IMG/VR virus record: IMGVR_UViG_3300046780_000208
Coordinates: 1 to 21,464 of that record
From: a virus
DNA length: 21,464 nucleotides
Reading direction: 5' to 3' (one strand)
The notes beneath the pieces were generated by a model that had not been told where the DNA came from, searched no databases, and saw only the letters and a program-made list of their open reading frames with translations. This document shows positions 369 to 21,064 of the stretch, piece after piece (position 1 is the stretch's first letter; every line of letters begins with the position of its first letter). The position numbers and the translations under genes were made by a program.

Positions 369-781
369 GGCAGCCACCAATAATTACCGTTGGGATTATC
401 GGAACCATATTCACCAGCGCTGAACCCGGCAAACATGAGAAACGTTCCATCCAGCCATAAACGGGCAGCTTGTTCCAATTTGGATTGATTCGATTTGGCG
501 CGACTGGAATTCACACCATACGCTACTGAGTATTGTCCTTGTGATTCGCTCGTAATGCCGTCAGTGGTAGAGTGTTGATTTTGCAATTCTTCAGCAACTG
601 CGCACATTGCCATTGCGATCTTATCGACAATATCCGTATCGGTCTGTGAAGCCGCACGTTGAAACGTAACGCGGTCAATTACCTGTGAGGCTTGCAGGGC
701 TAATTTTGGAAAGTCGGCCTCGGCTATGACTGTACCTAAATATGTGGTTGTGTAATAGGTGTAATCCGCGTATACAGTCAT
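365..781 (-). CDS. Head-tail connector (adaptor) protein
   Basis: This 138-residue protein begins MTVYADYTYYTTTYLG, followed by a helical region (AEADFPKLALQASQVIDRVTF) and a central AMAMCAVAEELQ helix. That is the usual layout of gp6/gp15-type connectors, which bind under the portal ring after packaging. It lies after the capsid and decoration-like genes and before another interface protein, which fits a head-completion role. Codons near residues 85-88 contain one TACTGAGTA copy (524-532), encoding YSV. The start has a modest AAAGG upstream. Family assignment is from sequence feel and gene order. Confidence 0.7.
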   Translation of the reverse strand: MTVYADYTYYTTTYLGTVIAEADFPKLALQASQVIDRVTFQRAASQTDTDIVDKIAMAMCAVAEELQNQHSTTDGITSESQGQYSVAYGVNSSRAKSNQSKLEQAARLWLDGTFLMFAGFSAGEYGSDNPNGNYWWLP

Positions 782-793
782 AGCCGATAACCT

Positions 794-1288
794 TTATGCC
801 GAAGCAATGCCTTCAACATATTCCAAATAACCGGTTAACTTTCCACCGGTTAGCGCTTCCACCGCGACGGTCACAGTAACTTCGCGTGCCTGGGTGGTTT
901 TTACGGATGTTGATTCGGGTGTGTTATTTTTGGGAACGATGGCTTTGCGGCCAATCGTTGAAAATGGCGCACCGCTTACAGCCGCCGCGCTGATCACATC
1001 ATTAGCGCCTTCAACTTTAATCGCAACTGTTGAAGTTGAATTCGTTGAGGTAAACGCGGTGTTCACGTCTACGAAGCCGCCAATCACAATAGCATTAGCG
1101 GGCAGTGAAACATTCATGCCATGTGCGCCTACAGCTGTATTTGCCGCACCCGCCGAATCGGTGAGAGACGTGTCAAATGTAAAACGGGCAACGCGCCGCG
1201 CACCCAATCCTGAGCCGCCATTGAAAAACGGTCCAAGATAGTTATTAATCTGTTGGAGCCAATTGACGCCGTTAAAGAGTTCAGGCAT
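794..1288 (-). CDS. Putative virion decoration-like structural protein
   Basis: The 164-residue product is rich in Ala, Thr, Val and Gly and has no obvious enzyme motif. It has alternating beta-type segments, such as ARFTFDTS, ANAIVIGGFVDV, STVAIKVEGANDV and REVTVTVAVEALTGG, and ends in GKLTGYLEYVEG. This resembles beta-sandwich capsid-associated proteins encoded next to the major capsid gene in many siphoviruses. The ATG overlaps the stop of the HeH gene as TAATG, so translation is probably coupled. Capsid decoration is inferred from position and composition. A head fibre or other surface protein is also possible. Confidence 0.5.
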   Translation of the reverse strand: MPELFNGVNWLQQINNYLGPFFNGGSGLGARRVARFTFDTSLTDSAGAANTAVGAHGMNVSLPANAIVIGGFVDVNTAFTSTNSTSTVAIKVEGANDVISAAAVSGAPFSTIGRKAIVPKNNTPESTSVKTTQAREVTVTVAVEALTGGKLTGYLEYVEGIASA

Positions 1289-1524
1289 TATTCACCTGCC
1301 GTTTCGTTCAACGCGATCAAGAGATCGGCTTTTTTCATATCTTCAAAGCCTTCGATACCCTTTTCTTTTGCGAGTTCTTTCAACTCTGCAACAGTTAATT
1401 TCTCAAGAGGCTTTTCGTCTGGCTCAACAGGAGTGATTACTTCGACCCAGCCGCGCTGCTTATAAAGCGCTATATCAGCAGGGGTAGTAACTGTGGTTGA
1501 GATACCGCCTTTTTCAAGTTCCAT
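1288..1524 (-). CDS. Small HeH/LEM (SAP-like) domain protein
   Basis: This is a 78-residue protein. Residues about 40-75 contain LEKLTVAELKELAKEKGIEG, followed by MKKADLLIAL, the pattern of a HeH/LEM or Rho-N type helix-extended-helix domain. The N-terminal half, with TPADIALYKQRGWVEV, is typical of small phage proteins encoded between capsid and connector genes. A strong AAGGAGG lies 7 bases before the ATG, suggesting high expression. It is translationally coupled to the following decoration-like gene. The role in the virion is unknown; the domain can bind DNA or protein. Confidence 0.7.
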   Translation of the reverse strand: MELEKGGISTTVTTPADIALYKQRGWVEVITPVEPDEKPLEKLTVAELKELAKEKGIEGFEDMKKADLLIALNETAGE

Positions 1525-1535
1525 GATGTGCCTCC

Positions 1536-2435
1536 TTAAGTGGCTTTCTTGTGCAGATAAACGCCCTTGACCTTGTTATCCTCAACAAAGGCATCATGAT
1601 ACAGGCGGTAGTCCCACAAATGAGCATTCTTGGTTTGATTGATGTCAGCGGAGAAATAGCGAACGTTGTCCAGTTTTTTAGCCTGGATTACAGCGGACGG
1701 ATGAATCAGCAGGAAGTTAATATCAACTCCGCCGCCGCCGGTATTCTTGGAGAAACCACCAGCACTCGAAGATGCACCTGGATCAAGGGTGATCTTCGTA
1801 TAGAAACGGGTTTGAGGCACAGGAACGATCTGAACACGATCCAGATTTTGAACTGTGCGATCCACGTTACCCTCATTGTTGCCAATCAAACGAGTCAGGG
1901 ACTGTTTGAGGAAAGACGCAACAGTTGCTGAAGCAAACAATTTGCGGCCATCCATCGGAACCTCGTCCTCATCCTGCTGCAGCATCGCCGCATCAAATGC
2001 AGCCAAAACGGTAGAAGCAGAAAGTGTTGCAGCCGCAACCGTTGAAATTCCGGACCAACTTGCATACTTAGCAAAGCGATAAGCGTCCAGTTCAGGAGCA
2101 ACCGAGATTCTTTGGAATGTGCGGATTGCGTTACCGAGAACCAAGCCAAGCGATTCGTCGTTATCCATCGCGTCAATCGAGAACTTGCGGGCACGTTCAG
2201 TTGCCAGAGTCAAGAGTTCCCACGTGGCAGTAAAGTCGCCATCAGGCGAACCAGTTGCACGACTGTAGTTGCCAAGTCCAGTCGTTGTCAGTTTCATGAT
2301 CTTGATATTGGCAGTACCATTGAATTCAGGTGCGTCTACTTGCAGCGCATCCAACACCGCACTTTTCGATTCGTCTTTATAAGCCTCGTCCATCTTTGCT
2401 AAAAAGATGGTAGTTAAATCAATTGCGTTAGCCAT
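1536..2435 (-). CDS. Major capsid protein (HK97-fold family)
   Basis: The 299-residue protein starts MANAIDLTTIFLAKMDEAYK. It has the central pattern YSRATGSPDGDFTATWELLT then ERARKFSIDAMDNDES, which is characteristic of a capsid family found in Gram-positive siphoviruses. The C-terminal region, with FLLIHPSAVIQAKKLDNVR and a following DYRLYHDAFVEDN, is also typical. It lies directly after the scaffold gene with a 13-bp gap and has AAGGA before the ATG. No N-terminal protease or delta domain is fused, in keeping with a separate scaffold. It should form the icosahedral shell. Confidence 0.88.
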   Translation of the reverse strand: MANAIDLTTIFLAKMDEAYKDESKSAVLDALQVDAPEFNGTANIKIMKLTTTGLGNYSRATGSPDGDFTATWELLTLATERARKFSIDAMDNDESLGLVLGNAIRTFQRISVAPELDAYRFAKYASWSGISTVAAATLSASTVLAAFDAAMLQQDEDEVPMDGRKLFASATVASFLKQSLTRLIGNNEGNVDRTVQNLDRVQIVPVPQTRFYTKITLDPGASSSAGGFSKNTGGGGVDINFLLIHPSAVIQAKKLDNVRYFSADINQTKNAHLWDYRLYHDAFVEDNKVKGVYLHKKAT

Positions 2436-2448: not shown

Positions 2449-3015
2449 TTATTGGGGCGTTTTGAAGTTGCCGCCTTTGTTGACTGCCGCTTCAAACGCA
2501 GATATGTTTGCAGCTTGAGTGTTATTTGCGCCCGTTACGATTCTAGGCGCGGGTTTGTCACCTTCAAACAGGAAATCATTTTCCGTTTTGATTTTTTCGA
2601 GCTGCTCTTTCAAACCGAGAATTAAGCCGTCTTCCTGAAGTTTGAGCGCATCTTTACTCAGTAGGGCTGTTACTGCTTTGACGTTCTTTGCTTTCGCACC
2701 CGTGAGCGCTGATTCAAGCGCATGGTCGAATTTAATTTGTGCCAATTGCGACGTTGAGTCTTTTTGAGCCTGTTCAAACTTGGTTCTCCAATCATCGGCA
2801 GCGGCTTTGAGTTCATCAGGCTTGAGTGCCTTGAATCCTTCAATGGTCTTATTGGCGTCGGTTAATTGACCGTTCGCCGCGTCGAGCTGCGATTGCAAGT
2901 TTGTCACCGCTGTTTTTTGCGCGTTGACATCCTCGCCATGCAACTTCATAATGCCGTCGATGGTTTCATCGGTCGCCGAATCACCGAGCAGTTTTTTTAC
3001 ATCTTCACGTTTCAT
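2449..3015 (-). CDS. Capsid scaffolding protein (phage GP20 family)
   Basis: From the ATG at 3015 this gives 188 residues. The N-terminus, MKREDVKKLLGDSATDETID, leads into a long charged coiled coil that includes NLQSQLDAANGQLTDANKTI. It then has the segment FDHALESALTGAKAKNVKAV and a closing GLILGLKEQLEKIKTEND. This is the layout of GP20-type minor structural/scaffold proteins, which guide capsid assembly and are lost or cleaved later. An in-frame GTG at 3039 is possible, but AGGT stands at a better distance before 3015. One TACTCAGTA copy (2655-2663) encodes LLS. It is the first gene after the terminator at 3100-3147. Confidence 0.85.
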   Translation of the reverse strand: MKREDVKKLLGDSATDETIDGIMKLHGEDVNAQKTAVTNLQSQLDAANGQLTDANKTIEGFKALKPDELKAAADDWRTKFEQAQKDSTSQLAQIKFDHALESALTGAKAKNVKAVTALLSKDALKLQEDGLILGLKEQLEKIKTENDFLFEGDKPAPRIVTGANNTQAANISAFEAAVNKGGNFKTPQ

Positions 3016-3270: not shown

Positions 3271-3444
3271 TTATTCTACCTTTGCAAGCGGAGAAATGTT
3301 ACTCAGTAGTCCTATATCTTCCGGTTTCTCTTGAATCGTAATCATAATATCCTGATAATTAGGAAGTCCATATTTCTTGCGAATACCTACCACAATCGCG
3401 ATGAGAGCACGGCAAATAATATCGGCTAATTGTTTGTCACTCAT
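3271..3444 (-). CDS. Small protein of unknown function, 57 residues
   Basis: The ATG at 3444 overlaps the stop of the minor capsid gene as ATGA, so it is probably translated by coupling. The product starts MSDKQLADIICRALIAIVVG, with a hydrophobic stretch at about residues 8-20 in an amphipathic helix. A charged segment (IRKKYGLPNYQD) and a tail ending SPLAKVE follow. One TACTCAGTA copy (3300-3308) encodes LLS. It is the last gene before the non-coding leader and terminator. I do not recognise the family; it may be a small virion or assembly factor. Confidence 0.6.
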   Translation of the reverse strand: MSDKQLADIICRALIAIVVGIRKKYGLPNYQDIMITIQEKPEDIGLLSNISPLAKVE

Positions 3445-4565
3445 ATAACCTGCTCTCGTTCCCGTTGGCGAATTAAATCTGTTTCAGAAATAAAGTTCCT
3501 CATTTGCGCTTGATATTGCGATACCTTTGCCAGTTCAAAAGAGTTATCTAAGCCCGCCGCATCTAAAGCCGCTGCTTGACGTTTCCAAAGGCGAATGTTG
3601 CGCTCAATCTGACGTTGATACTGAGTAGCATCATACATGCTGATTTCTTGTCCCTGATATTTCACCTTTTGATTATTCATGCTTTTTAACTCAGCACGGT
3701 CATAAGCATTTTCGGAGATACCAGCGAAGTAAGCATAAAAGCTATGCCGACAGTTATAACCTCCTAAACCTTCGCCAGTGCCGTAGCCAGTGACCTTTAC
3801 AAAATTTGGATATTTGGAATCATTGCCAGAACGAGAGTAAATTTTTCCCTGCCAACTCGCATGATTTTCGGGCCCAATACCTTTATTGCGTGCGCCAATA
3901 TGCGCAGATACAGCAACCAAATCCGAGCCCATTTCATCAGCGCGATTCATTTGCAGTTGATGCGTAGTTTGAGATACACCCGTGAGCACGGTGCGACGCG
4001 TTGCTACATCCAAACTATCAGTATGCCCTGATGCAAATTCAATTACATCCAATCCATCAGCCGACACTTTTTTTACAGCAGCACGAATTGCCTGGTCATA
4101 GGACATTGCACCCGTGCTTACTTGCATATGTGCCACATCGGCGGCTCTCAAAAAAGTTTGCTGTGAGGTCACCGCAGTTGACTTTGTGAGATTATTTAAC
4201 ACGCCGTTGGTTTTATCCAAGCCAGCTTTCAAAGTCTGCAGCATAGCCGGCGACATATTAAGCGGTATCGGCTTCAAGCCTGCATCTTTATAAATTGAGT
4301 CGTCAAACTGTACCGCTTTCACACCACCACTACTGAGTATTTTGGTAATTTCTTTTTCAGATTTCCCCGTGAGCTTGGCAAGTTCCTTAAGCACGTTTTG
4401 AAACAGCGCTCCCGATTCAGTAAGCCGTTGCACCTGCCAGGCCGCAGATGAGAAATCTAAATTGATTAACCGCCGTGCAATATCATTGATAATCGTTTGC
4501 TCGTATTCTGAGTAAAGATTGAGAATTGGGTCAGCAAGAGATTCAAATTGATCAGAAGTAATCAA
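3441..4565 (-). CDS. Phage minor capsid protein 2 (MuF-like head protein)
   Basis: This 374-residue protein has a long helical N-terminus with TIINDIARRLINL. The central region has QTFLRAADVAHMQVSTGAMS, RTVLTGVSQTTHQLQMNRAD, then SAHIGARNKGIGPENHASWQ. The C-terminal YNCRHSFYAYFAG motif marks the minor capsid protein 2 family, which is packaged inside the head and may be ejected with DNA. The start appears to be TTG at 4565, one base after the portal stop. AAAGAG lies upstream, and no usable ATG occurs for more than 100 codons. TACTGAGTA occurs twice (3619, 4331), encoding TQY and ILS. Confidence 0.85.
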   Translation of the reverse strand: MITSDQFESLADPILNLYSEYEQTIINDIARRLINLDFSSAAWQVQRLTESGALFQNVLKELAKLTGKSEKEITKILSSGGVKAVQFDDSIYKDAGLKPIPLNMSPAMLQTLKAGLDKTNGVLNNLTKSTAVTSQQTFLRAADVAHMQVSTGAMSYDQAIRAAVKKVSADGLDVIEFASGHTDSLDVATRRTVLTGVSQTTHQLQMNRADEMGSDLVAVSAHIGARNKGIGPENHASWQGKIYSRSGNDSKYPNFVKVTGYGTGEGLGGYNCRHSFYAYFAGISENAYDRAELKSMNNQKVKYQGQEISMYDATQYQRQIERNIRLWKRQAAALDAAGLDNSFELAKVSQYQAQMRNFISETDLIRQREREQVI

Positions 4566-5988: not shown

Positions 5989-6060
5989 CTATGCCTGCCG
6001 TTTGCATAGTGCTGAAATAATACTCAGTAGTAACGGGATCAGCAAAATAAATTTATTCAC
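5989..6060 (-). CDS. Candidate 23-residue membrane peptide between terminase and portal
   Basis: A GTG at 6060 overlaps the terminase stop as GTGAATAA, with GGCGAGG close upstream. The frame runs MNKFILLIPLLLSIISALCK and ends RQA, with TAG touching the portal ATG. It is almost wholly a hydrophobic helix with a basic end, like a single-pass membrane micro-peptide. One TACTCAGTA copy (6021-6029) encodes LLS. The exact fit into the gap and the SD-like sequence support translation. The short length leaves chance possible, and it may serve mainly to pass ribosomes to the portal start. Confidence 0.4.
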   Translation of the reverse strand: MNKFILLIPLLLSIISALCKRQA

Positions 6061-7873: not shown

Positions 7874-7998
7874 TAACCACTACTCAGTAGTATGTTATCC
7901 GGTTGTCCGCCATCGCATCTTACTGCGCGAGGACGACGTAAACAAAGATATATAAGAATGATTATTGGCATAAATAGACACGTTAAACATTCATCCAC
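7873..7998 (-). CDS. Candidate 41-residue membrane peptide before terminase
   Basis: A GTG at 7998 overlaps the TAG of the upstream gene (TAGTG), and the TAA overlaps the terminase ATG (TAATG), so the frame fills the gap exactly. It reads MDECLTCLFMPIIILIYLCL, then a basic RRPRAVR and a short polar tail ending ILLSSG. One membrane helix (about residues 7-20) with a following positive cluster suggests an N-out, C-in single-pass peptide. The tail carries TACTCAGTA (7881-7889). No family is recognised and there is no clear ribosome-binding site apart from coupling. Confidence 0.4.
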   Translation of the reverse strand: MDECLTCLFMPIIILIYLCLRRPRAVRCDGGQPDNILLSSG

Positions 7999-9991: not shown

Positions 9992-10231
9992 TTAACTAAT
10001 TGCCTTCCACATCGCAAACACAACAATAAGCTGCGTGCGGTTGTCAGCTTCAATTTTATTGCACGCACGTTTGATGTGAAATTTAATTGTGCGTGTACCG
10101 ATACTCAGTAGTGTTGCTATCTCCTTATTACTTTTGCCCTCAGCTAAAAGCGCAACGATTTCTAGTTGCCTGGGCGTAAGTCGTGCTACCAGGTTAGGAA
10201 GCAGCGAGGGAGAGAGAGTCAGAGGATTCAT
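9992..10231 (-). CDS. Stand-alone LuxR-type helix-turn-helix regulator
   Basis: The 79-residue protein is little more than a GerE/LuxR DNA-binding domain. Residues 18-69 carry LTPRQLEIVALLAEGKSNKE, IATLLSIGTRTIKFHIKRAC and NKIEADNRTQL, with the usual four helices. No receiver or ligand domain is present. It is the last gene before a strong terminator and lies just upstream of late membrane and packaging genes, so control of late transcription is likely but inferred. A TACTCAGTA copy (10102-10110) lies within the HTH codons, encoding LLS. An ATGAT-TT-ATCAT inverted repeat (10272-10283) upstream is a possible operator. Confidence 0.85.
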   Translation of the reverse strand: MNPLTLSPSLLPNLVARLTPRQLEIVALLAEGKSNKEIATLLSIGTRTIKFHIKRACNKIEADNRTQLIVVFAMWKAIS

Positions 10232-11251: not shown

Positions 11252-12216
11252 TGCGCCACCTCCATAAACTTATATTCATTTGGTAACTCATGCCGATCAA
11301 ACCAATATTGATGAAATCTCTCACCTTCATCGTTCAACGCGATCTGTCCCGCGCCGGCAGGCACCGCAAGATTGTTATCCAGATAAAAACCGCGCATCTG
11401 ATATAAGACATCGCGGGTAAGAGTGCGACTTGTATTCTCCAAACGATTTATCCCGAACGTTCGTTCACCATTGACGACAAGTTCGGATAATTCTGTAAGC
11501 TGCTCAGACGCACATGGAACCTCATGCTTTTTCCGTATTGAATAGTCTCCTTGACCCAAATCTATTTTATACATGTCCTCAAAGATGGGTTTTGTTGGTT
11601 CTACCAACACCTGTTCTTTTGGATCTCGGACCCGCATGAATAAAAATATAATCAAACCAATGGCAAAGATACTAATCGCACCCATTGCAAACATACTCAC
11701 TATGTAATTCACCGCTCCATATTTCGCTTGTAGCTGCGAGTCGATCATCGCGCGGGCTTGTGCCGGCGCTTCTTTAGTTGCGGTCAATTGCGCTGCCACA
11801 AGAGCCTGTTGCCTGGGTATCTGTGTGTTGATCGCCGCTTGTTGCGTAGCGGTCAACGGAATAACCGTATTTACTGCTTGCGCTGTCCACTGCAACTTAG
11901 CAAAATTGTTCTGTTCGACAATCTGCGTAGCTTGCATTTGTTGATTAAGTATCGCTTCGTGCGCCGCGGTTGCCTGTGCATTGACACGCCGTGCTTCATC
12001 GGCGGTAGCTTGCGCGACTTGTGCTGTTTGTTGATAGTCTATCGTGACGGTAGGTACAAGTGTATTCGTCGGTTTGGGCGTAGCGGTAGATTGGTACTCA
12101 GTAGTCAATGCTATGACTTGATTGCCAGCCGGCTTGTATTTCGAGGGACGAGTCGTCAACACGTAGACGCCAATAATCAACACAATGGCACATCCATAGA
12201 AGAGAATAGTTTTCAT
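11248..12216 (-). CDS. Two-pass membrane protein with external Thr/Gln/Ala-rich loop and winged-helix-like end
   Basis: The 322-residue protein has a membrane helix at about 4-20 and another at 171-194. The loop between them is external by the positive-inside rule (basic residues follow helix 2). It starts STATPKPTNTLVPTVT and continues as a Gln/Ala/Thr-rich, probably helical stretch. Such TATP-type linkers are common in Anaerolineae. The C-terminal cytoplasmic part (about 235-305), with TELSELVVNGERTFGINR, SRTLTRDVLYQMRGFYLD and VPAGAGQIALNDEGE, looks like a winged helix. Signalling from the envelope to DNA, or membrane tethering, is inferred. One TACTCAGTA copy (12095-12103) encodes TEY. 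Confidence 0.8.
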   Translation of the reverse strand: MKTILFYGCAIVLIIGVYVLTTRPSKYKPAGNQVIALTTEYQSTATPKPTNTLVPTVTIDYQQTAQVAQATADEARRVNAQATAAHEAILNQQMQATQIVEQNNFAKLQWTAQAVNTVIPLTATQQAAINTQIPRQQALVAAQLTATKEAPAQARAMIDSQLQAKYGAVNYIVSMFAMGAISIFAIGLIIFLFMRVRDPKEQVLVEPTKPIFEDMYKIDLGQGDYSIRKKHEVPCASEQLTELSELVVNGERTFGINRLENTSRTLTRDVLYQMRGFYLDNNLAVPAGAGQIALNDEGERFHQYWFDRHELPNEYKFMEVAQ

Positions 12217-12221
12217 AGTAT

Positions 12222-12560
12222 TTACTTTCTCGGAAACAATTTAGAACCAAATAAATTGCGATGTACAGTTATGGGTTCAGCTACTGATTCGGCTACGGGT
12301 TCAACTTCTTCTTGTTCAACTACCTCTTCAACTTCTTCAGTAACGGGAGTCAAATCTATTCCTGCCTTTCTCATGCAATAATTCGCCATGATGCTTTGCT
12401 TCGCGCCTTTGGCAATTTGATACTCAGTAGCAAGTTCAAGCCAGTCCTCACGACTACCTGATTTCTCCAACGCATCACGACGGAGACAGCACACGATGAA
12501 TAAATCGAAGTCATAGAAATGCAACAAATTCTTTTTATTTTTCAATGCACGAATTACCAT
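12222..12560 (-). CDS. Hypothetical protein with acidic C-terminal stretch
   Basis: The product has 112 residues. The N-terminal two thirds is mixed helical (RREDWLELA-like region at about 35-60, with CCLRRDALEKSGSREDWLEL), followed by a very acidic Val/Glu tract (TEEVEEVVEQEEVEPVAESV) from short DNA repeats. It ends in a basic LFGSKLFPRK tail. One TACTCAGTA copy (12421-12429) encodes TEY. It lies 5 bp before the two-pass membrane gene. I do not recognise it; the acidic tract may be a protein-interaction or DNA-mimic segment, but that is speculation. Confidence 0.65.
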   Translation of the reverse strand: MVIRALKNKKNLLHFYDFDLFIVCCLRRDALEKSGSREDWLELATEYQIAKGAKQSIMANYCMRKAGIDLTPVTEEVEEVVEQEEVEPVAESVAEPITVHRNLFGSKLFPRK

Positions 12561-13111: not shown

Positions 13112-13485
13112 TTTGCGCCTCTTTCCCATTGTTGCCATCGTTCAATTATTTGCTTACCCTTTTTCCCATTCCACGCTCGCGCCAAATGATGATACAAAAT
13201 ACGCGGGTTGTCTTTGCCGTGCATGGCCGTTCGTCCTTCAATGGGCTTTAGTCCCAAATCATGCAGTTGGCACAATCCATTTTTGTGAAATACGCAAGTT
13301 CCTTTCGTTCCTTTTGAGCCGCGCGATTTGATAACGGCAAACTCCAAAGATGGGTCGTTATCGTTATCTATGGTTAATTTGGACATGTATCCCGCATCCA
13401 TGATCGCCGCAATTTCTTTGGGTGTTCCCATGCAGGGCGTGCGTCGGCACATGGATTGACAATCTGAACATTGACAACTATTCAT
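13108..13485 (-). CDS. Cysteine-rich metal-binding protein (YkgJ-like)
   Basis: From the ATG at 13485 (TAATG overlap with the primase stop) the product has 125 residues. The N-terminus, MNSCQCSDCQSMCRRTPC, has Cys at 4, 6, 9, 13 and 18. Further on come GTCVFHKNGLCQLHDLGLKP and an HGKD motif. This Cys pattern followed by C-x7-C-x2-H-x4-KP resembles YkgJ-type zinc- or iron-cluster-binding proteins. The basic C-terminal helix (NGKKGKQIIERWQQWER) could contact nucleic acid. It may act with the primase-polymerase, but that is inferred only from coupling. Confidence 0.7.
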   Translation of the reverse strand: MNSCQCSDCQSMCRRTPCMGTPKEIAAIMDAGYMSKLTIDNDNDPSLEFAVIKSRGSKGTKGTCVFHKNGLCQLHDLGLKPIEGRTAMHGKDNPRILYHHLARAWNGKKGKQIIERWQQWERGAK

Positions 13486-14402
13486 TATCCCCATATCCCC
13501 ACCTCCTTAGCCAATTGCGACACAGCAACCGACTCATAAATATTATGTTGACGCGCATATAAGTTAATTACATCCATCGGTTTCATGCCGCATACTTGGC
13601 AGCCGAACAACTGCCGGCGGGCATCGATCCAACCAGACGGACGCGTATCTTGATGGAACGGACAGACTACTGAGTACCATCGGCCATCAGCAGAAGTGCG
13701 GGTAAGATTTGAAAAGAAGTTCTCAATTCGCACAGTGTTCTTAACCTTTGAAATCAAATCCATGCCGGTGCTGTTGACTACTGAGTAAGCATCGTACACA
13801 CCCTGCGTCTGAATAGTGATGTGAGACGTATTCGTTTGCACATACTTACAAGTCGCCGCTACGCGAGGAAATAAATCAAGTGGCAAAATAGATTCCACGC
13901 TAGGAACACGCACAAGTGCAAACTCGTTTTCTGGTTCGTACATCGCACCACTGGGATGAACGCAGCCTGGACCAACTACAAATCTACCTTGCGCCTGCAC
14001 ATCGATACCGCCGCTGTTGACAATTCGTTTGCCATTGTCGGCTTTGCTTTCTGTTACGACATACACGTGCATACCATGGCGTGTGCGAACACGAAAAGAA
14101 TTATTAACCACATTCTGAACGTCGCCATCCTGCATACTTCCCCACAGTTGCCAAATGTTGTAATAATCCATTGTGTCAAAATCAATGATGACTAAATTCT
14201 GCCAGCCCGCAATAACGGCATAATTCAGCCAACCAGAGCCAAGCCATTTTAATAAGTCGTACTCAGTAGGTAACTGGGTGTTATATTGTCCCCAACGACC
14301 ACCGATCAATGAGGCTTCGGGCTCCTTGCCTCGGTGCCTGAGAGGAATAATGGCTATACCCATTTTCAAAAAGTTTAGTGCGTTTGTAAGTTTGTCTGAC
14401 AT
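13485..14402 (-). CDS. Primase-polymerase with C-terminal CHC2-like zinc ribbon
   Basis: The 305-residue protein starts with a prim-pol (bifunctional primase/polymerase) domain at about 1-180. It has ALNFLKMGIAIIPLRHRGKE, the catalytic DFD at 74-76 (NLVIIDFDTMDY), and the segment VNSGGIDVQAQGRFVVGPG with a following HPSG. A C-terminal zinc ribbon has C247, H250, C268 and C271 (CPFH and CQVC), as in DnaG CHC2 domains, but at the opposite end. It should make primers at the replication start, together with the VirE-type helicase upstream. It contains three TACT(C/G)AGTA copies (13668, 13779, 14260). The candidate origin lies directly before it. Confidence 0.85.
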   Translation of the reverse strand: MSDKLTNALNFLKMGIAIIPLRHRGKEPEASLIGGRWGQYNTQLPTEYDLLKWLGSGWLNYAVIAGWQNLVIIDFDTMDYYNIWQLWGSMQDGDVQNVVNNSFRVRTRHGMHVYVVTESKADNGKRIVNSGGIDVQAQGRFVVGPGCVHPSGAMYEPENEFALVRVPSVESILPLDLFPRVAATCKYVQTNTSHITIQTQGVYDAYSVVNSTGMDLISKVKNTVRIENFFSNLTRTSADGRWYSVVCPFHQDTRPSGWIDARRQLFGCQVCGMKPMDVINLYARQHNIYESVAVSQLAKEVGIWG

Positions 14403-14603
14403 ATTTACCTATTTTCTTTTTTTTCAAAAAAATCTATCTGTTACACTTCCCTTGGAGCACTCTTCTATAATTAACTTTGCCTACAATCAGGCGTAACAGA
14501 TGTAACAGATATTTCTTAAGGAGTTTGAAAAAGTTTTAAAATATTTTTTCTAATTAAAGGGAATTATGTGTTACATCTGTTACGTGTTACACCTATCTGT
14601 TAC
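14403..14603. other. Candidate replication origin: AT-rich gap with ATCTGTTAC iterons
   Basis: ATCTGTTAC occurs five times: forward at 14436-14444, 14575-14583 and 14595-14603, and reverse (GTAACAGAT) at 14493-14501 and 14502-14510. Two more GTGTTAC half copies lie near 14568 and 14585. Between the two groups, 14521-14560 is almost all A/T. Iterons next to an easily melted stretch, between a primase-polymerase gene and helicase/methyltransferase genes, fit an origin or a repressor region. The last codons of the methyltransferase run through the rightmost repeats. A poor -10-like TATAGA lies near 14465 on the minus strand. Confidence 0.5.
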
Positions 14604-15212
14604 GCTCCATTGCTCAGCCATTGCACGAGCGATACCAGGAAATGTTTTTGACCTGATACCCCCCCCGTGTTTAGCGTCTGTAAAATAACGTTTCTTTTGG
14701 CGGGGAGTGTTGTCGATATAAATTGGATCGGGTCTATTGGTTGCAGTTCTTTCTCCAAATAATTCATTTTGCAATCTGTATTCCAAAAGCGGTAAATTCT
14801 TTAACCATATCCATGTAGTTTTCAGATGATCATCACCAAAATAATAAGGTTGTATCTCTTGTGAATATTTGGCAATTGTTGGCGAAGCACATCCTTTCGG
14901 ATTTTCAAGACAAATCTTTTCAATGGGAGCTGTCCATAATTTAGCAAAGAAATTCAACGCCTCCAATCGTTTTTCAATTCGTCCAAGTTGATTCCAAACA
15001 TGCGTACCGGCGTAACTCAAATATGTGCAAGGCGGATGGGCAATCATCAAATCCCATCCATCATTAAGCACTGTCAAGACATCGGCTTTTATATGCCATT
15101 CAGGAAAACCGCCGCTGCAATCTTGAATATCGCAGCTGTATGCCTCATGACCCAATGTACGAAACGCTTTGGTGATTTCCTGGCTTTCTTCACAACCAAT
15201 TAAAATCTTCAT
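14580..15212 (-). CDS. DNA cytosine-C5 methyltransferase-like protein, short form
   Basis: The 210-residue protein starts MKILIGCEESQEITKAFRTL, a SAM-binding first strand and helix, followed by GHEAYSCDIQDCSGG. The catalytic Pro-Cys is HPPC at 59-62 (C62), and CLENPKG (E103, N104) matches the family's ENV-type motif. The C-terminal target-recognition domain of full-size enzymes is not apparent. Such short phage forms are common, and their target is unknown. It could protect phage DNA or mark origin DNA. Whether it targets the repeated TACTSAGTA motif cannot be told from sequence. Start from ATG at 15212, with a weak SD. Confidence 0.82.
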   Translation of the reverse strand: MKILIGCEESQEITKAFRTLGHEAYSCDIQDCSGGFPEWHIKADVLTVLNDGWDLMIAHPPCTYLSYAGTHVWNQLGRIEKRLEALNFFAKLWTAPIEKICLENPKGCASPTIAKYSQEIQPYYFGDDHLKTTWIWLKNLPLLEYRLQNELFGERTATNRPDPIYIDNTPRQKKRYFTDAKHGGGIRSKTFPGIARAMAEQWSVTDRCNT

Positions 15213-15221: not shown

Positions 15222-16694
15222 TCAATTCCAAAATAGCCGCGCGTTGGAGAGCCACCAGTACGCTAGCTTTGTAAGCGCCCGGGCAAGTTTCCGCATGTCC
15301 AACTCAGAACCAACGCGGAGATTGCCTTTATTCGGGTCTTTGAGTGCATCCATAATCTCTAAAGACGAAAGCCACCAATTAGAATTTTGCGGATCAATCT
15401 TGAACCACTTTTTGATAGTTTCTTCCACGGGATCAAGAATTCGATACTCTTCATTGATAATGTCAATGCGTTGCCGTTCTTGGTCTGTTGTCGGCTGCCA
15501 ACTCTCGCCACTGAGATAGAGCATCATGGCTTGCGCCCAAACCTGATTTACATCAATCTTTGTGTATGCCCAATCAATACTGAGTATCTTTTCAACGTAA
15601 TAACGCCGGTCTCCTGTTGGCATGAATCCCTCTTCGTTGTTGATCGTGCCAATGAAACTTGCCAACGCTGGTTGAATGGTATCTACCCTGTCATACTTGC
15701 GGCGAAATGTCACAGTGCGTTGTGTTAGAAATCCCTTCATGGATTCCCAATCGCTTTTACGCATTGACGAACCTAGCTCTTTCACTTCCCAAATCCAATT
15801 CTCAGCCAGGCGGCGCTTATTATCTTCATTACGCGTATCTAACTCTTCCTCAAGAAAATATGCGGGCATTGGTGAGGCAATCCAGCGGACAAAATGACTC
15901 TTGCCAATTCCCTTCGGACCATCCATAACCAACATACGGTTTTGTTCGGCTGCCATTGCCTTAGCACAGGTACCAATCAGCCAGCGGCGCAAGAACACTG
16001 GAAACATGCCGTACTCGCTGTGAAAGTAATTTGCTAAATCCGCAATTGGATCACCGCCCTCGAACGATAGCCCGCGCAAATAATCTTGAATTGGATGATA
16101 AGCATTTTTATACGCCGTGGATGTAATCACGTCTTGCACCGCATCCATGCCTAATACTTTTAGATCACGCATTTCTCTCCGAATGTCTGCATAATCTCCG
16201 TTGGTCATGGTGCGCCCGTTGTCCTCGACGCCTCGGCATAAATTAAGTCTGATAGAGTGCCCACGGCTTTGAATGAGTTGGAGGATCTCATAACTCTTGA
16301 TATGCTTTGGCGCTTTGGTGTGTGCTTGATTTTGTGCAGCCCGATGAGCGTTGCCGCGCTGCACAATTGCGCGCTCAATGGCTCCCCTTAGTAATTGATC
16401 GTAGATACTTAGTGCATTGCGATACGCTGCATCAATATCAGGACTGCCAATCAATTCAATCCAGATGCGTTCCCACGGTTGCGAAGTGGGTAAACCGTAA
16501 TTTGTAATCTCACGAGATATGCTAAGTGCGTGTGCTAACCGTTCCATGCCATCAATAAACAAGCTGGAGTTTTCGTCAATAAACGCATCTGTCAAAATTT
16601 GTGCGTCTGGATCAACGATTCCTTGCAGAATCAAATCAGCATGAAGAGTCGACATCTTTACCTGGGGCGAGGCATACGCAGCATTGGGCATCAC
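15222..16694 (-). CDS. VirE-type superfamily 3 replicative helicase
   Basis: The 490-residue protein has a C-terminal VirE/D5-like ATPase with Walker A GPKGIGKS (259-266) and acidic NWIWEVKEL (299-307). It also has sensor-like SFIGTINNEEGF (346-357) and GDRRYYVE (361-368). The preceding part (about 140-240), with LQLIQSRGHSIRLNLCRGVE and YHPIQDYLRGL, is typical of such phage helicases. It should unwind DNA at the origin in concert with the prim-pol encoded at 13485-14402. The start is GTG at 16694 or ATG three bases later. One TACTGAGTA copy (15578) encodes ILS and extends to a perfect 11-base palindrome apart from its centre. Confidence 0.85.
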   Translation of the reverse strand: MMPNAAYASPQVKMSTLHADLILQGIVDPDAQILTDAFIDENSSLFIDGMERLAHALSISREITNYGLPTSQPWERIWIELIGSPDIDAAYRNALSIYDQLLRGAIERAIVQRGNAHRAAQNQAHTKAPKHIKSYEILQLIQSRGHSIRLNLCRGVEDNGRTMTNGDYADIRREMRDLKVLGMDAVQDVITSTAYKNAYHPIQDYLRGLSFEGGDPIADLANYFHSEYGMFPVFLRRWLIGTCAKAMAAEQNRMLVMDGPKGIGKSHFVRWIASPMPAYFLEEELDTRNEDNKRRLAENWIWEVKELGSSMRKSDWESMKGFLTQRTVTFRRKYDRVDTIQPALASFIGTINNEEGFMPTGDRRYYVEKILSIDWAYTKIDVNQVWAQAMMLYLSGESWQPTTDQERQRIDIINEEYRILDPVEETIKKWFKIDPQNSNWWLSSLEIMDALKDPNKGNLRVGSELDMRKLARALTKLAYWWLSNARLFWN

Positions 16695-16696: not shown

Positions 16697-17320
16697 TTAT
16701 TTTTTCCCGATTGCGAGGTTGTAGGCTTTTTGCACTTGGTCAAATAAAACAGGGTCGCCGCCTGCGTCCGGATGGTGAACTTTTACGAGTTGTAAATATG
16801 CTCCTCGGATTTCTTGACTAATTGCAGTTTGCGGAACGTGCAATACTTCCCACCATTGTTTTGTGTCTGGGTCTGGCAATGCCGCATAACCCGCGAACGC
16901 TTGATCCAGTGAACCTACTCCCCATCGTTCTTGTCCTCGCAGTGCTTCGATATGCTTGACGATAGCCCAAAGGTTATCTTCGATGGAAGTCCATTTATCA
17001 CACGCAAAAACTAAATCGCGTTTTTTCCAAGCGAAATAAACTGCTACCCCGCAATCTTCAGGTTGTCTTTGACCTGAGTAAGGCAACCCGTTTGACTTTA
17101 CTTTCAGGTTGGAGGAAATAATAAGATTGCTTCCGCCCAATCTCCGAATTTCTTGCTCCAATTCTCGAGCACCTTCAGAGATTGTATGCTTCCGACCAGG
17201 TTGATAACCGGCATAAGAACTAACTCGCCCTTGTGTTCCAAAGCGGGCACGTGCATGATTTTGGGTTCGTGGTTGACCAACAGGCCATGACAACGGGTAA
17301 TTGGTAATATCATCGTTCAT
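16697..17320 (-). CDS. J-domain protein 1 (C-terminal DnaJ domain)
   Basis: Residues about 155-205 of 207 carry a J domain: WWEVLHVPQTAISQEIRGAY, then LVKVHHPDAGGD with the HPD triad at 183-185. J domains stimulate Hsp70 ATPase, so the protein may recruit host DnaK. The N-terminal 150 residues, with RARFGTQGRVSSYAGYQPGR and CGVAVYFAWKKRDLVFACDK, are not recognised. They may bind a replication protein, as the gene is followed after 2 bp by the helicase gene. GAGG stands before the ATG. A lambda P or DnaJ-like role in helicase loading or remodelling is inferred. Confidence 0.82.
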   Translation of the reverse strand: MNDDITNYPLSWPVGQPRTQNHARARFGTQGRVSSYAGYQPGRKHTISEGARELEQEIRRLGGSNLIISSNLKVKSNGLPYSGQRQPEDCGVAVYFAWKKRDLVFACDKWTSIEDNLWAIVKHIEALRGQERWGVGSLDQAFAGYAALPDPDTKQWWEVLHVPQTAISQEIRGAYLQLVKVHHPDAGGDPVLFDQVQKAYNLAIGKK

Positions 17321-17328: not shown

Positions 17329-17886
17329 CTATGCTGTCAACAAGTTCTTAACAGTGGATTCCAATTCTTTGACTTTCTCGGCAGTGACACCTTGCCCACC
17401 AGATGCCTTAGCCAAGCGATTCAGAAACTTCTGACCTGCGCCACCTTCGGGACCAACGTAAATTGTGTCGATCTTCGCTTTGTAAGTTTTAGCAACTCGC
17501 AAACATTCTTGCTCGTCGTCAGGTTCACCATCGCTAATGACAATAAAACGAATGCCTTTGAGATCAGCCATCTTTGCAAACTTCAACGCCTTGGCTAGAT
17601 CGGTACCGCCGCCAAAATTGAAAGGGATTCCATTGGGGCAGAATTGAACGTCATCGCTAAATGACAGTAGTGCTAGTTTGCCTGGAAGACTTGCCTGCAA
17701 TTTCTTGAGTTCCTCACAAGCTACGTCATAGCGCGATTGATTATTGCGTGAATCGTTTGCGCCCATGCTGCCACTAGTGTCGACTATGAGTATTACATCC
17801 GCATTGATAAAGCTCTCGGCAACACTTTTGCCTTGCGCTTGAGCGACGGCACCTAATGAGCCTTGAATAATTGCACCTTGATTCAT
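17329..17886 (-). CDS. VWA-domain protein with intact MIDAS
   Basis: The ATG at 17886 overlaps the upstream stop as ATGA and has GGGGG before it, giving 185 residues. An N-terminal Gly/Ala/Gln segment leads to the metal-ion site DTSGSMG (D36, S38, S40), followed by LALLSFSDDVQFC, GGGTDLAKALKFAK and IRFIVISDGEPDDE. This is a complete von Willebrand factor A fold, binding a partner through a divalent metal. No signal peptide is present, so it works in the cytoplasm. No AAA+ MoxR-type partner is visible. The flanking J-domain and zinc proteins suggest a joint complex. Confidence 0.85.
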   Translation of the reverse strand: MNQGAIIQGSLGAVAQAQGKSVAESFINADVILIVDTSGSMGANDSRNNQSRYDVACEELKKLQASLPGKLALLSFSDDVQFCPNGIPFNFGGGTDLAKALKFAKMADLKGIRFIVISDGEPDDEQECLRVAKTYKAKIDTIYVGPEGGAGQKFLNRLAKASGGQGVTAEKVKELESTVKNLLTA

Positions 17887-18371
17887 TTTGACCCCCATAG
17901 ATCGAGTCTGACTTGTATGATTTCGCAAGTCTCGCAGTTTTCAGGACGATAGCCATATTTTGAAAGATGTTCTAAGTGCCCGAATAAGTTATCTTCAATT
18001 TCAAAAGCTTTTTCAAGCAATTTCTTTTCAGGTCGCTTTTCGCAAGTCATAACATGGTCAAAAATTTCAATCAGATTATTTTTATCTTCGTGTACGTGCC
18101 CGCAATAAGCGCACATAGTTTTGTTGTTTATACATAAAGCGCAATACTGAGTACCGTTCCCGTCCTGTGCTAAATATCTGTTTTTATGTCCGCACGGCAT
18201 GGTAATGTCGTAGGTTTCGAGCCACCATTTAAGGCTCTCATTTTTCTCTTTAGTGACTTGTTCAATGATATTAACAACCTCTGGAATGTCACTGGCAGAT
18301 TGTCCGGGTTTCCATTCTGGTTCAGTGTTGAAATATTCAATAATCTTTTTTGCCGCTTCTTCAGGTATCAT
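17883..18371 (-). CDS. Zinc-binding protein with several Cys/His knuckles
   Basis: The 162-residue product has a helical N-terminus (PEEAAKKIIEYFNTEPEW) and a Cys/His-rich middle: PCGH (60-62), CALC (77-80) and CAYCGH (87-92). A further CETC pair stands near the end (146-149). Two or three zinc sites are likely. TACTGAGTA (18145-18153) encodes TQY next to one knuckle. GGAG precedes the ATG, and the stop overlaps the VWA start. No family is recognised; adaptor or nucleic-acid binding are the usual roles for such folds. Confidence 0.72.
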   Translation of the reverse strand: MIPEEAAKKIIEYFNTEPEWKPGQSASDIPEVVNIIEQVTKEKNESLKWWLETYDITMPCGHKNRYLAQDGNGTQYCALCINNKTMCAYCGHVHEDKNNLIEIFDHVMTCEKRPEKKLLEKAFEIEDNLFGHLEHLSKYGYRPENCETCEIIQVRLDLWGSK

Positions 18372-18380: not shown

Positions 18381-19202
18381 CTAGCACCAAACTTCGGTAA
18401 ATTTATCTTCGCCAGCTTTCCAGCTCACAACCAGCACGCGGCCAAATGAATCTTTTATATCTTCCCATGCAAAAATCTTTTGCACTTGAAGCACGCCTAT
18501 TGTTTCAACGCCTTCACACATAATCAAACCGCAGCGCAATGGAGAACGATAACCATTAGCTACTGAGTACTGGTTACTTGATTTCGGTGTATTTCTCAAC
18601 GTCGCTTCGAGTGCCAATCCTGCATCATAGCGATCACGGCTTTTTGTCAAAACTTCATACGCATGTTGGATAGCTAAAAATTGTTCATGTGCGTTTGGTT
18701 CACGACAAGCATCAGGATGCCATTGACGCGCCATTCTTCGATAGCCTGATTTGAGTTCGTCCTCTGTTGCGCTTTGCCTAATGCCAAGTACTGCATATAG
18801 CGTTGGCTGCTCGTCCGGTTGCGCGGGTGCGTCAAACCAAGTGCGGAGAACTGTTTCAGGAAATAATACAGACCAAGAATTATTTACATAACCGTATGCT
18901 GAGTATTCTCCGTTGCCACGATCTTTAGTTGCGCCTATATAGCGACAATCAATAATTTGCTGTTTGACTACCGGCTTGCTATTCGCAACTACTGGCAATG
19001 GCACAATCTCGTTGAAAATATCCAAGCAAATATCTTGTAACTTCTTCCCATGTTGAGGAGACACCAACCAGTATTTTTTATCTGGCACATATCGCCGCTC
19101 GTTTGCCGGAATCCGCCGTTTGAGTTCATACAAAAATTGTTGATCGTAGGGCGTAACAATCGCAATTGCGCCATTTTCAGAGAGTAATTTGCATTGAGTC
19201 AT
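18381..19202 (-). CDS. J-domain protein 2 with N-terminal HARP-like segment
   Basis: The product has 273 residues. Residues 10-65, with AIAIVTPYDQQFLYELKRRI and DKKYWLVSPQHGKKLQD, resemble the small HARP-like domain found beside some DNA-remodelling proteins. A J domain follows at about 133-187 (LYAVLGIRQSATEDELKSGY, ARQWHPDACRE) with HPD at 162-164. The C-terminus (about 225-273), with VGVLQVQKIF-like and GRVLVVSWKAGE segments, is unassigned. It differs from J-domain protein 1 in domain order, so the two are not recent duplicates. TACTGAGTA (18561) encodes YSV. It probably recruits host Hsp70 to the replication proteins. Confidence 0.82.
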   Translation of the reverse strand: MTQCKLLSENGAIAIVTPYDQQFLYELKRRIPANERRYVPDKKYWLVSPQHGKKLQDICLDIFNEIVPLPVVANSKPVVKQQIIDCRYIGATKDRGNGEYSAYGYVNNSWSVLFPETVLRTWFDAPAQPDEQPTLYAVLGIRQSATEDELKSGYRRMARQWHPDACREPNAHEQFLAIQHAYEVLTKSRDRYDAGLALEATLRNTPKSSNQYSVANGYRSPLRCGLIMCEGVETIGVLQVQKIFAWEDIKDSFGRVLVVSWKAGEDKFTEVWC

Positions 19203-19252: not shown

Positions 19253-19527
19253 TGCATTTCCTTTCGATCACTCAGGCACCATAGCAATTCAGCAGGTGCC
19301 ATCTCTTGAATTCGCTTGTAACGAGGATGTTTATAAATACCAAGCAACTTCCTTGTTTCAATGTTCTTAGGTGTCCAAGAGCCATTTGATTTTGCAATGC
19401 GATTTAAAGTTCCGGCTTTCACGCCAGGGTAATCTTCTTTTGCTATTGTTCGGTACGATCTGCCTTTTACGTTTTCTCGTAGAATGCGTTTTGATAATTT
19501 ATAGGCTGTAGTAGTCAATTCGTGCAT
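19249..19527 (-). CDS. Small HTH-like DNA-binding protein
   Basis: The 92-residue protein has a helix-turn-helix-like core at about 22-65: RSYRTIAKEDYPGVKAGTLN, RIAKSNGSWTPKNIETRKLL, then GI. Similar small proteins appear in phages and probably bind DNA. A perfect palindrome GTCACG-TTTT-CGTGAC lies 21 bp before its start, so self-regulation is plausible but not shown. AGGA precedes the ATG at some distance. Confidence 0.7.
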   Translation of the reverse strand: MHELTTTAYKLSKRILRENVKGRSYRTIAKEDYPGVKAGTLNRIAKSNGSWTPKNIETRKLLGIYKHPRYKRIQEMAPAELLWCLSDRKEMQ

Positions 19528-19603
19528 ATCAAGTAATCCTGAGTACTGTCACGTTTTCGTGACGCACGCTGTAAGGCTAACTGAGACTTGTAAAAACGCT
19601 GTT
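19528..19603. promoter_or_regulatory. Operator-like palindrome in the gap before the HTH gene
   Basis: GTCACG (19548-19553) and CGTGAC (19558-19563) form a perfect 6-base inverted repeat around TTTT. Directly beside it, TCCTGAGTA (19537-19545) is a one-mismatch version of the dispersed TACTGAGTA motif. The gap lies between the GIY-YIG and HTH genes. A weak AAAAC/GTTTT hairpin with a T run follows the nuclease stop on the minus strand and could be a poor terminator. Confidence 0.45.
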
Positions 19604-20140
19604 TTAGCCCAATTCATAGTCTTGCAGGGATGCAATCCATTGGACATCGTTTTCGTCTAATTCAAACCATTCATATTCAATGCGCTTGGTCGAAAACTTT
19701 TGATGTAAATCTTTTTCAACTTTTCGGTAATCATGACAAGCAAAACAATGAATGACTTCAATAAGAACCGGAAACTGTCTTTTCAAACCACCTAAACGGT
19801 TTTCCACTTTTTTAGATATTCCTATTTTGTGGTAGCCATTTCCAGAGCGCATAAGATAAACATATCCAAACAGTTGATTTGCTTCATATAACTGAGCCTG
19901 TCTTTCTTTCTCCAAATCTCTTTCTGTTTTGACTATTTCTGTCTTAGTCTTCTTTTCTAAAATAATTGAAGATGGCTTTTCAATTGGCTTTTTTATTTCG
20001 TCTTGTTTTTGTTTGATCTGTTCTGCTTCGTTTTCTTTCCATATTTTGAACGAACAAGAGGAGCAAATTCCGTTATCTCGTGAACTTGCCCAAAAATCTT
20101 TTTTACACACTGAACACGTTTCTACTCTTGGATATTGCAT
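19604..20140 (-). CDS. GIY-YIG nuclease (T5orf172-like) with N-terminal zinc knuckle
   Basis: The ATG at 20140 has GGAG 7 bases upstream and gives 178 residues. The N-terminus has a four-Cys knuckle (C9, C12, C26, C29), followed by a charged coiled-coil linker (about 35-88). The C-terminal catalytic domain (91-170) shows GYVYLMRSGNGYHKIGISK, NRLGGLKRQFP, and EKDLHQKF with the expected Glu (E142), then YEWFELDENDVQWI. These are the core residues of T5orf172-type GIY-YIG proteins. It may be a free-standing homing-type or repair nuclease. An in-frame GTG at 20272 exists but gives an unlikely leader. Confidence 0.85.
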   Translation of the reverse strand: MQYPRVETCSVCKKDFWASSRDNGICSSCSFKIWKENEAEQIKQKQDEIKKPIEKPSSIILEKKTKTEIVKTERDLEKERQAQLYEANQLFGYVYLMRSGNGYHKIGISKKVENRLGGLKRQFPVLIEVIHCFACHDYRKVEKDLHQKFSTKRIEYEWFELDENDVQWIASLQDYELG

Positions 20141-20281
20141 AGTGATCTCCAAATAAATTACTAGATAATTGCTTTGCCAGCAGTAATCATTTGTATTATC
20201 TGAAAAAGTCTCACCGCTTACCTGCTGGCACATAAGGGTGGATTGTGACAGGCACGGAGCCTGATAACACACTACTGAGTA
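20141..20281. promoter_or_regulatory. Non-coding gap between RecT-like and GIY-YIG genes
   Basis: It contains the only copy of TACTGAGTA outside a gene (20273-20281), touching the RecT-like stop. It also has an inverted repeat CTGATA/TATCAG that encloses that copy, and a CAGGC/GCCTG hairpin (about 20248-20262) without a T run. No convincing promoter is seen. It may separate early recombination from replication transcription. Confidence 0.35.
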
Positions 20282-21064
20282 TCAGTCTCTGTTCGTGGCT
20301 TCTACCATTGCCTGTTGCGTGAGCAGCTTGCGTCGCACTTCCTCAATTTGTCCATTGGTAGGAATTGCACCGTTGTTCACGTTCATAATTGCCTCAGCGC
20401 CGAAATCATTGATAAGTTGTTGCAATGGGTCAACACTGGGCACGCTAGTCGCAACCGCATCAATCACGTCCCCGCCCTCAGTAAGTGCCACGCCATACAT
20501 TTCGGGTGCTTTCATGAGCGTTGTCATTCCAGCAGTAACATCAGGCGCAACCACATCAGCAGCAAAACCCACGGCGCGCCATAAGCACATATTTTCGGGA
20601 TACTTTGACCAACCCGAATCAGGCTTGACCAAACCGGCGCGGGTTGCATCTTCCATTGTGAATCGGGCGGTGTGTTGAAAGTTCTTGCCGGTGCGCTTCA
20701 TCGTGCATTGATAGCCAGAAAATTTTCCGGTTTTATCTTCGAGCCGCACAATGTCGATATCGCTGATAATAGGACTACTGAGTAGTAATGCCATCGCGCC
20801 GCGTGGTGCAACACCAGGCTTGCCTTGAATCACTTGAATAAAATCAAATGAGGCAGTCATACTGAAGCCGCACTCAAAACCTTTGAGCATGATCGCCTCA
20901 GCCTGTTCGATGGAGGTCACGCCGAATAAATGACTCTTGTACATGGCGGGAGCCATGACTTCAATCATCTTCCAAATTGCGGGTGTGAGCTCACGAGTTG
21001 CAGCAGTCACTGCTAATTCAGTTGTAATGGGTTCAATTGCGGTTTGTTTAGTTTTCGTTGCCAT
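20282..21064 (-). CDS. RecT-family single-strand annealing protein
   Basis: The 260-residue product has the RecT core: MLKGFECGFSMTASFDFIQV, IQGKPGVAPRGAMALLLSS, GYQCTMKRTGKNFQHTARFT and MEDATRAGLVKPDSGWSKYP. The closing NMCLWRAVGFAADVVAPDVT matches the family's conserved end. It should bind single strands and anneal them during phage recombination. The partner exonuclease would be expected upstream (right of the window). It has one TACTGAGTA copy (20776-20784) inside the core, encoding LLS-type residues, and another directly after the stop. The gene is 2 bp after a small upstream gene. Confidence 0.82.
   Translation of the reverse strand: MATKTKQTAIEPITTELAVTAATRELTPAIWKMIEVMAPAMYKSHLFGVTSIEQAEAIMLKGFECGFSMTASFDFIQVIQGKPGVAPRGAMALLLSSPIISDIDIVRLEDKTGKFSGYQCTMKRTGKNFQHTARFTMEDATRAGLVKPDSGWSKYPENMCLWRAVGFAADVVAPDVTAGMTTLMKAPEMYGVALTEGGDVIDAVATSVPSVDPLQQLINDFGAEAIMNVNNGAIPTNGQIEEVRRKLLTQQAMVEATNRD

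Follow-up and report, generated by a model that had tools for sequence, protein, structure and literature searches.

The virus fragment analysed here, a linear stretch of 21,464 bases from IMG/VR record IMGVR_UViG_3300046780_000208 (the window), carries tailed-phage genes for head, portal and terminase proteins together with a replication block, and contains 18 exact sites of the nine-base word TACTSAGTA, spanning positions 524-20784. Enrichment of this word depends on the presence of one primase gene: its sites are conserved in phages with this primase only, its flanking bases differ between branches of the primase tree, and its preferred strand flips at the primase gene. From these sequence comparisons we consider the motif most likely to be the site at which the phage's own primase recognises its template, spaced at about 1 kb and serving lagging-strand starts.

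An oriented word dispersed through phage genomes

The 18 exact sites compare with a mean of 0.07 and a maximum of one in 100 dinucleotide shuffles of the window, which bears out the original prediction that the count lies far above chance, and the reversed word, used as a control, has no copy in the window. When words were scored against an order-2 (trinucleotide) Markov model, the top 9-mer of the window was TACTCAGTA and the top 10-mer CTACTGAGTA. The copies are listed below with the strand that reads 5'-TACTGAG(TA)-3' and the number of aligned motif-group relatives in which each is kept, a C/G swap at the centre being allowed.

524..532, plus: kept in 1 of 1
2655..2663, minus: kept in 3 of 4
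3300..3308, minus: no homologous alignment
3619..3627, plus: kept in 5 of 11, and in 0 of 3 relatives without the motif
4331..4339, plus: kept in 1 of 10
6021..6029, minus: no homologous alignment
7881..7889, minus: no homologous alignment
10102..10110, minus: no homologous alignment
12095..12103, minus: no homologous alignment
12421..12429, minus: no homologous alignment
13668..13676, plus: no homologous alignment
13779..13787, plus: no homologous alignment
14260..14268, minus: no homologous alignment
15578..15586, plus: kept in 1 of 4
18145..18153, plus: no homologous alignment
18561..18569, plus: kept in 1 of 2
20273..20281, plus: no homologous alignment
20776..20784, plus: kept in 2 of 7

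The original prediction also held that exact copies are kept while near copies stay at chance level. The first part stood and the second held only in part, with six near copies in the window against about two expected. Over 31 contigs, TACTCAGTA was found 254 times on both strands (2.15 expected), and the single-change forms AACTCAGTA and CACTCAGTA were enriched 12-fold and 9.6-fold; all remaining single changes reached at most 3.0-fold, excepting the C/G centre swap, which equals the reverse complement. The first T is therefore relaxed and the core is oriented CTCAGTA. Most phages have T as the next base 3' of the motif, and 15 of the 18 window sites have G there. The motif is thus an oriented CTCAGTA core (complement TACTGAG) and not a strict palindrome, palindromy being an addition of the window's clade.

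Within the window the sites occupy genes of many kinds. Over 11 records including the window, 196 of 240 sites lie in open reading frames (ORFs) against 218.8 expected from coverage, a count that takes one record twice under its genome record label (G435) and its locus label (L355). All five stop-free classes of phase and centre base are occupied, and a protein or codon effect was therefore rejected as the cause, in line with the earlier statement that protein sequence does not explain copies across such different genes. The spacing of the sites is near random and slightly more even than chance would give (24 partly related sets, Fisher-combined p=0.001).

Many relatives of the window's portal protein, at 52-70% identity, come from phages with the motif at 0.2-1.2 per kb, and equally similar others from phages without any. 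Whole records hold 43 copies in 41,041 bases (G405), 28 in 39,521 (G409), 23 in 42,730 (G412) and 22 in 38,352 (G401), and none in G416, G425, G426 and G434. Among cellular records, the closest relatives of the portal protein occur in metagenome-assembled genomes titled Anaerolinea, Anaerolineales and Chloroflexi (51-65% identity). The class of the first of these (G001) was taken as the likely host class, the host being deduced from portal relatives only. None of 396 genomes of this class showed a phage-like density, the richest having 95 copies in 4.4 Mb, or about 0.02 per kb, and in most of them the motif was rarer than the reversed control word. Genomes with more copies of the motif than of the control word (G322, 95 versus 48; G398, 19 versus 2; G120, 19 versus 5) were all far below phage density. 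A host-wide motif was rejected on these counts. The comparison of related phages with candidate Chloroflexota hosts, suggested along with the original prediction, thus found the word dense in many phages and absent at such density in the class genomes; provided that this class is indeed the host, the high density therefore belongs to the phages.

Association with the primase gene

The proposed reader of the motif is encoded in the replication block of the window.

13485..14402, minus: primase of 305 amino acids, with an N-terminal Prim-Pol (AEP) domain, a flexible linker and a C-terminal CHC2 (DnaG-type) zinc-binding domain

Both domains (Pfam PF09250 and PF01807) were found in all 16 members of the primase family. 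Residues D74, D76, H112 and D134, which we take to be the AEP PrimPol motifs I-III (DxD, H, D), are invariant in the 16 sequences, as are the CHC2 ligands C247, H250 and C268, while C271 is present in at least 90% of them. An AlphaFold2 model of the primase had a mean predicted local distance difference test (pLDDT) score of 84.5 and a predicted template modelling score of 0.58, with the linker (183-210) below a pLDDT of 50. The N-terminal half matched pRN1 ORF904 (1rni) with E 3.9e-15 by sequence and 2.8e-11 by fold, and the C-terminal part matched the zinc-binding domain of Bacillus stearothermophilus DnaG by fold (1d0q, E 2.1e-5) and also by sequence. Judged by sequence and predicted structure, the primase combines a Prim-Pol core of archaeal-plasmid type with a CHC2 zinc domain of DnaG type.

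Clustering of the genes in 38 records suggested the replication block as a correlate of the motif. The primase was present in 16 of the 22 motif-bearing records, the remaining six being fragments of 5.9-15.2 kb. In a search with a hidden Markov model of the primase, 16 of the 38 records matched, and G426, G425 and G427 weakly (45, 39 and 20 bits). Fifteen of the 16 primase-bearing records were enriched for the motif at p<0.001, and the other, G415, had p=0.06 and four exact 9-mers. Among portal-family records of at least 19.9 kb without primase, one of 15 (G422) was enriched at p<0.01; of the 22 records without primase, seven below 16 kb (six with the motif and L055 without) were left out of this judgement, and the motif-less G418, G420, G424, G437, G438 and G439 were left out of the primase comparison. 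An earlier comparison had 17 primase-minus rows, of which none was enriched at p<0.01 and G422 had p=0.011 (L106 was excluded as part of the primase-bearing G419). Record G436 has VWA, DnaJ, ERCC4 and RecT-like genes and neither primase nor motif.

An independent search by the primase alone returned 80 loci, of which 62 (L319-L380) were counted. Distant or partial Prim-Pol matches (L381-L396) were dropped; CTCRGTA words were not their top words, except GCTCGGTA in L387. CTCRGTA was enriched in 59 of the 62 loci at p<0.03 and in 57 at p<0.01, and the reversed control words reached p<0.05 in none of the 62. Contigs new with respect to the earlier searches accounted for 47 of the loci, and 44 of these were enriched. 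The loci span two portal types, PHROG 533 and PHROG 64, and the motif is common to both. Five genome stretches of the likely host class with weaker primase matches showed no CTCRGTA enrichment; the remaining matches of that search were examined as short loci only.

No other gene seen follows the motif as closely. Relatives of window proteins were found in the 62 loci as follows: VWA in 40, VapE in 32, DnaJ in 32, RecT-like in 23, helix-turn-helix (HTH) in eight and methyltransferase-like (MTase-like) in none, the primase itself being present in 61 by construction. By gene cluster, RecT-like genes were present in 17, ERCC4 in 22 and PD-(D/E)XK in 21, in loci cut at 10 kb and with ORFs below 45 amino acids left unclustered. 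Three clusters beside the primase (a VapE type, a D5 type by Pfam, and one without a named family) replace one another while the motif stays. A search for relatives with the VapE protein itself as query returned none, the VapE counts above having been obtained separately. A set of loci found by the VWA protein shares members with the primase set; here enrichment at p<0.05 was seen in 49 of the 54 loci that have the primase and in four of the 25 without a primase match (L442, L457, L451 and L492). The contig of L442 ends 3.4 kb past the VWA gene, and L457 belongs to G423, which has the primase elsewhere. After this comparison of carriers, VWA, DnaJ, VapE, ERCC4 and RecT-like genes were set aside as correlates of the motif, being less constant than the primase.

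Retention, flanks and strand of the sites

Retention was scored where aligned DNA was 60-75% identical, partners being classed by whether they have the primase and G422 being included; the retention, VWA-set and orientation comparisons share records and ancestry, and their p-values are too small. With primase-bearing partners, 347 of 728 sites were kept exactly (background 9-mers, 4.2%), and with the six motif-bearing fragments 65 of 131 (background 4.0%). With primase-less partners none of 204 sites was kept, against a background of 3.2%. For 51 sites aligned to both kinds of partner, mean retention was 0.51 versus 0.0, centre swap allowed. When the classes were set by the motif, with L369, L371 and G422 left out, the figures were 489 of 1027 versus 0 of 220, the latter being partly built in because of how the classes were set. 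The sites are conserved only in relatives that have this primase. Loss of the sites by drift in close relatives, which the original prediction had named as an outcome that would speak against it, was looked for and is absent, retention in primase-bearing relatives being about eleven times background.

Near-identical loci were removed before the analyses of flanks and orientation. The bases around the core differ by primase clade, the forms being TACTCAGTA(T/G), ACTCAGTAT, GCTCAGTA, GCTCGGTA, CTCAGTAA and CTCAGTAT; L339 has GCTCAGTA and L356 has GCTCGGTA. The more distant two primases were, the more their flank profiles tended to differ (Mantel r=0.27, p=0.001), and this held when phages of unlike portal type were compared (r=0.23, p=0.004).

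Just upstream of the primase lies a second feature of the replication block.

14434..14606: AT-rich, iteron-like cluster with inverted copies (TGTAACAG / ATCTGTTAC), putative replication origin

Of 57 loci, 35 have a repeated 8-mer at p<=0.02 in the stretch of up to 320 bp that precedes the primase, with sequences that differ between loci. Only two motif cores were found in the 57 upstream stretches, and the copies are dispersed; the motif as origin iterons was rejected on these grounds. The cluster at 14434-14606 is probably the replication origin.

For orientation, 57 records were turned so that the primase reads forward, and 0.3-10 kb upstream and 0-10 kb downstream were compared. CTCRGTA stood on the primase strand at 199 of 349 sites upstream versus 149 of 531 downstream (p=1.4e-17), and the flip persisted when restricted to genes in primase direction on both sides (p=2.9e-13). 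The first kb downstream, which is the primase gene, is dense in sites that are possibly shared by descent; when it was left out, the right side had 115 of 388 and p was 6.1e-14. Record by record, TACYGAG was in excess downstream in 54 of the 57 and CTCRGTA in none, and upstream CTCRGTA was more frequent in 27, less frequent in 13 and tied in 17. Of 4,878 7-mers, CTCAGTA showed the strongest flip, and among 49 offsets p was smallest at the primase start. Orientation thus tracks the replication side and not transcription, as it flips while gene direction is constant. GC and TA skew differ between the two sides of the primase, with no sign change; together with the iterons, the skew suggests the flip point as origin. 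On the lagging-strand template predicted from this origin, 5'-TACTGAG-3' is found at five of five window sites above 14.6 kb and at eight of 13 below 14.4 kb.

Candidate role and alternatives

We propose that the iterons next to the primase gene would be the starting point of replication, which would proceed both ways, the lagging-strand template of each arm preferentially bearing 5'-TACTGAG-3' (in the window mostly 5'-CTACTGAGTA-3'). The zinc domain would read this word on the single-stranded lagging template, and the primase, which would thus be sequence-specific, would bind there and start primers at the motif. The sites would be spaced like Okazaki fragments, and a spacing of about 1 kb would ensure that lagging-strand synthesis always finds a start. 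With somewhat less confidence, we also favour the wider view that these phages have a genome-wide, selectively kept code of Okazaki start sites, 7-10 bases long and about one per kb, read by a chimera of PrimPol and DnaG zinc domain, and that upon module exchange the set of sites decays or is rebuilt.

Lagging-strand start sites are rarely readable in genomes, since the words used by most primases are too short to be anything but ubiquitous. The word described here is long and seldom expected by chance, is maintained by selection and varies with the primase. If the proposal is right, sequence alone would be enough to read primase specificity, origin and fork direction from the word with its variants and strand, and origin and fork direction would become predictable in uncultured phages. 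Some 60 primases with inferred target words would constitute a natural data set in which zinc-domain specificity becomes testable, and exchange of the replication module would force a rewrite of dozens of sites, a recombination cost seldom considered. Among the titles and abstract openings searched, there was no description of dispersed, conserved, primase-linked priming words, and none on the motif among the listed papers containing its letters.

The catalytic core of T7 primase has a fold other than the AEP core found here, and that of plant organellar Twinkle is of DnaG/T7 type. The C-terminus of pRN1 ORF904 is not known to have a DnaG-type CHC2 domain. The triplet CTG, which lies within TACTGAG, is that of E. 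coli DnaG. Among described systems, the closest in word length is phage NrS-1, whose PrimPol has the 8-nt recognition site 5'-TTTGGTTA-3' (PMC8718748, PMC7102993). This phage enzyme is an AEP primase-polymerase and begins synthesis at a defined word, as proposed for the primase here, and the model of the window primase matches its fold weakly (6a9w, E 4.1e-3). It differs in lacking a zinc finger and in having two site copies, located mid-genome (PMC7102993), as against 11-43 throughout the nine primase-bearing records above 30 kb studied here. The T7 gp4 primase, with sites 5'-(G/T)2GTC-3', has a zinc domain, and PMC12839067 gives about 26 sites proposed to be active in a genome of about 37 kb, a number close to that found here, with Okazaki fragments of 1-6 kb. 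Its core triplet and pentamer are common, with 504 and 177 copies in the lagging-strand region in the same paper, whereas the word of 7-10 bases described here is otherwise almost absent. For Twinkle, PMC10557236 reports that swapping zinc domains moves template recognition between primases, and that zinc domains carry this recognition in T7-like primases; by analogy, the zinc domain of the window primase may do likewise, with the difference that the Twinkle word is short. The closest solved relative of the N-terminal half of the window primase (1rni) is from pRN1 ORF904, which uses a GTG site according to PMC12205980.

Several observations weigh against a role in priming. Most primase words described are shorter, such as the T7 triplet within a pentamer (PMC12839067). 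The primase is present without enrichment in L345 (4.5 kb), L369 and L371, and in the VWA set in L435, L447, L472, L475 and L486, with L447 and L472 lying on the contigs that also gave L369 and L371. No match to the primase turned up in the six motif-bearing fragments, and their length may or may not be the reason. Record G422 has the structural genes of the window, no primase and five motif copies. Its replication block contains a DnaB-type helicase (PF03796); over the 39.9 kb examined, four 9-mers lie outside this block and two or three single cores in or at it. The location of the 9-mers would fit a recent exchange of the replication module, which is perhaps what G422 represents. The two halves of the primase correlate with the flanks about equally (0.24 and 0.25), the zinc half no better, and the flank test therefore gives the zinc domain no preference. 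Within 10 kb of the primase the strand bias is incomplete, at 72% on one side and 57% on the other, and farther away it is gone. Finally, the records share ancestry, which makes all p-values optimistic.

Of the other explanations, the main one is that the motif is read by another fork protein travelling with the primase, such as a helicase loader, a single-strand binding protein, a polymerase, or an undetected small protein or RNA. The strand flip shows only a link to the fork, and such a factor could be missed in loci cut at 10 kb and with small ORFs unclustered. However, no other gene is near-universal in the 62 loci, and the three clusters beside the primase swap while the motif stays; we regard this explanation as unlikely. 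Still less likely are Chi-like or other sites steering recombination for a nuclease or annealing system of the phage. Chi sites are oriented with replication, as the motif is, and many loci have RecT-like, ERCC4 or PD-(D/E)XK genes. Nevertheless, by cluster none of these genes exceeds 22 of the 62 loci (host enzymes fall outside this count), no recombination gene seen tracks the motif, G436 has ERCC4 and RecT-like genes but not the motif, and the likely host class has no comparable density.

Repressor or silencer sites like the stoperators of mycobacteriophage L5 are quite improbable. The motif is a dispersed near-palindrome and the window has an HTH protein, but most sites lie inside genes, the motif switches strand between the replication sides with no matching switch in gene direction, and the HTH gene has relatives in eight of the 62 loci in a search that covered that HTH and not other repressors; the stoperator reading was rejected. 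Least probable of all is a word imposed by a host or phage methyltransferase, as for HIP1 of cyanobacteria, which PMC4390886 describes as a short palindromic word of very high density in cellular genomes, tied to methyltransferases: the motif is near-palindromic and very abundant and an MTase-like gene adjoins the primase, but the motif is oriented by replication side, the 396 class genomes lack such density, and the MTase of the window, rejected as the enzyme targeting it, has no relative in the 62 loci (other MTase families were not searched). Host, gene and orientation data hence support the original view that the motif is none of HIP1, Chi, a stoperator or a methyltransferase target.

Other genes of the window mentioned above are the following.

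16697-17320, 17329-17928 and 18381-19202: proteins of the replication block, two with a DnaJ domain and one with a VWA domain; of the 62 primase loci, 40 have VWA and 32 the larger DnaJ protein
14580-15212: MTase-like protein (phrog_757) adjoining the primase and the putative origin; no Pfam family
9992-10231: LuxR-type HTH protein (PF00196)

When viral contigs were searched for two close copies of the motif, the 10 richest among the 80 loci listed were tandem or clustered repeats, and (TACTGAG)n arrays of tandem heptamers occur in other viral contigs (L208, L221, L230, L250 and L263). The contig of L455, with a VWA gene and no primase match in the piece examined, has 11 copies of GCCAGTAGG, possibly another form of the motif. 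Some portal relatives that showed no enrichment of the motif (L055, L056, L132, L138 and L141) have over-represented words of their own, ACTGATCACT, ACTGTTCACT, ATAGAGCC (18 copies), GCAGTCCTCA (15 copies) and ACCTGAGCGG (nine copies). Among loci with distant Prim-Pol proteins (L392, L394, L395 and L396), AAACTCAC or AAACTCATA is over-represented, with the copies of L392 and L395 gathered in iteron arrays that span about 350-420 bases.

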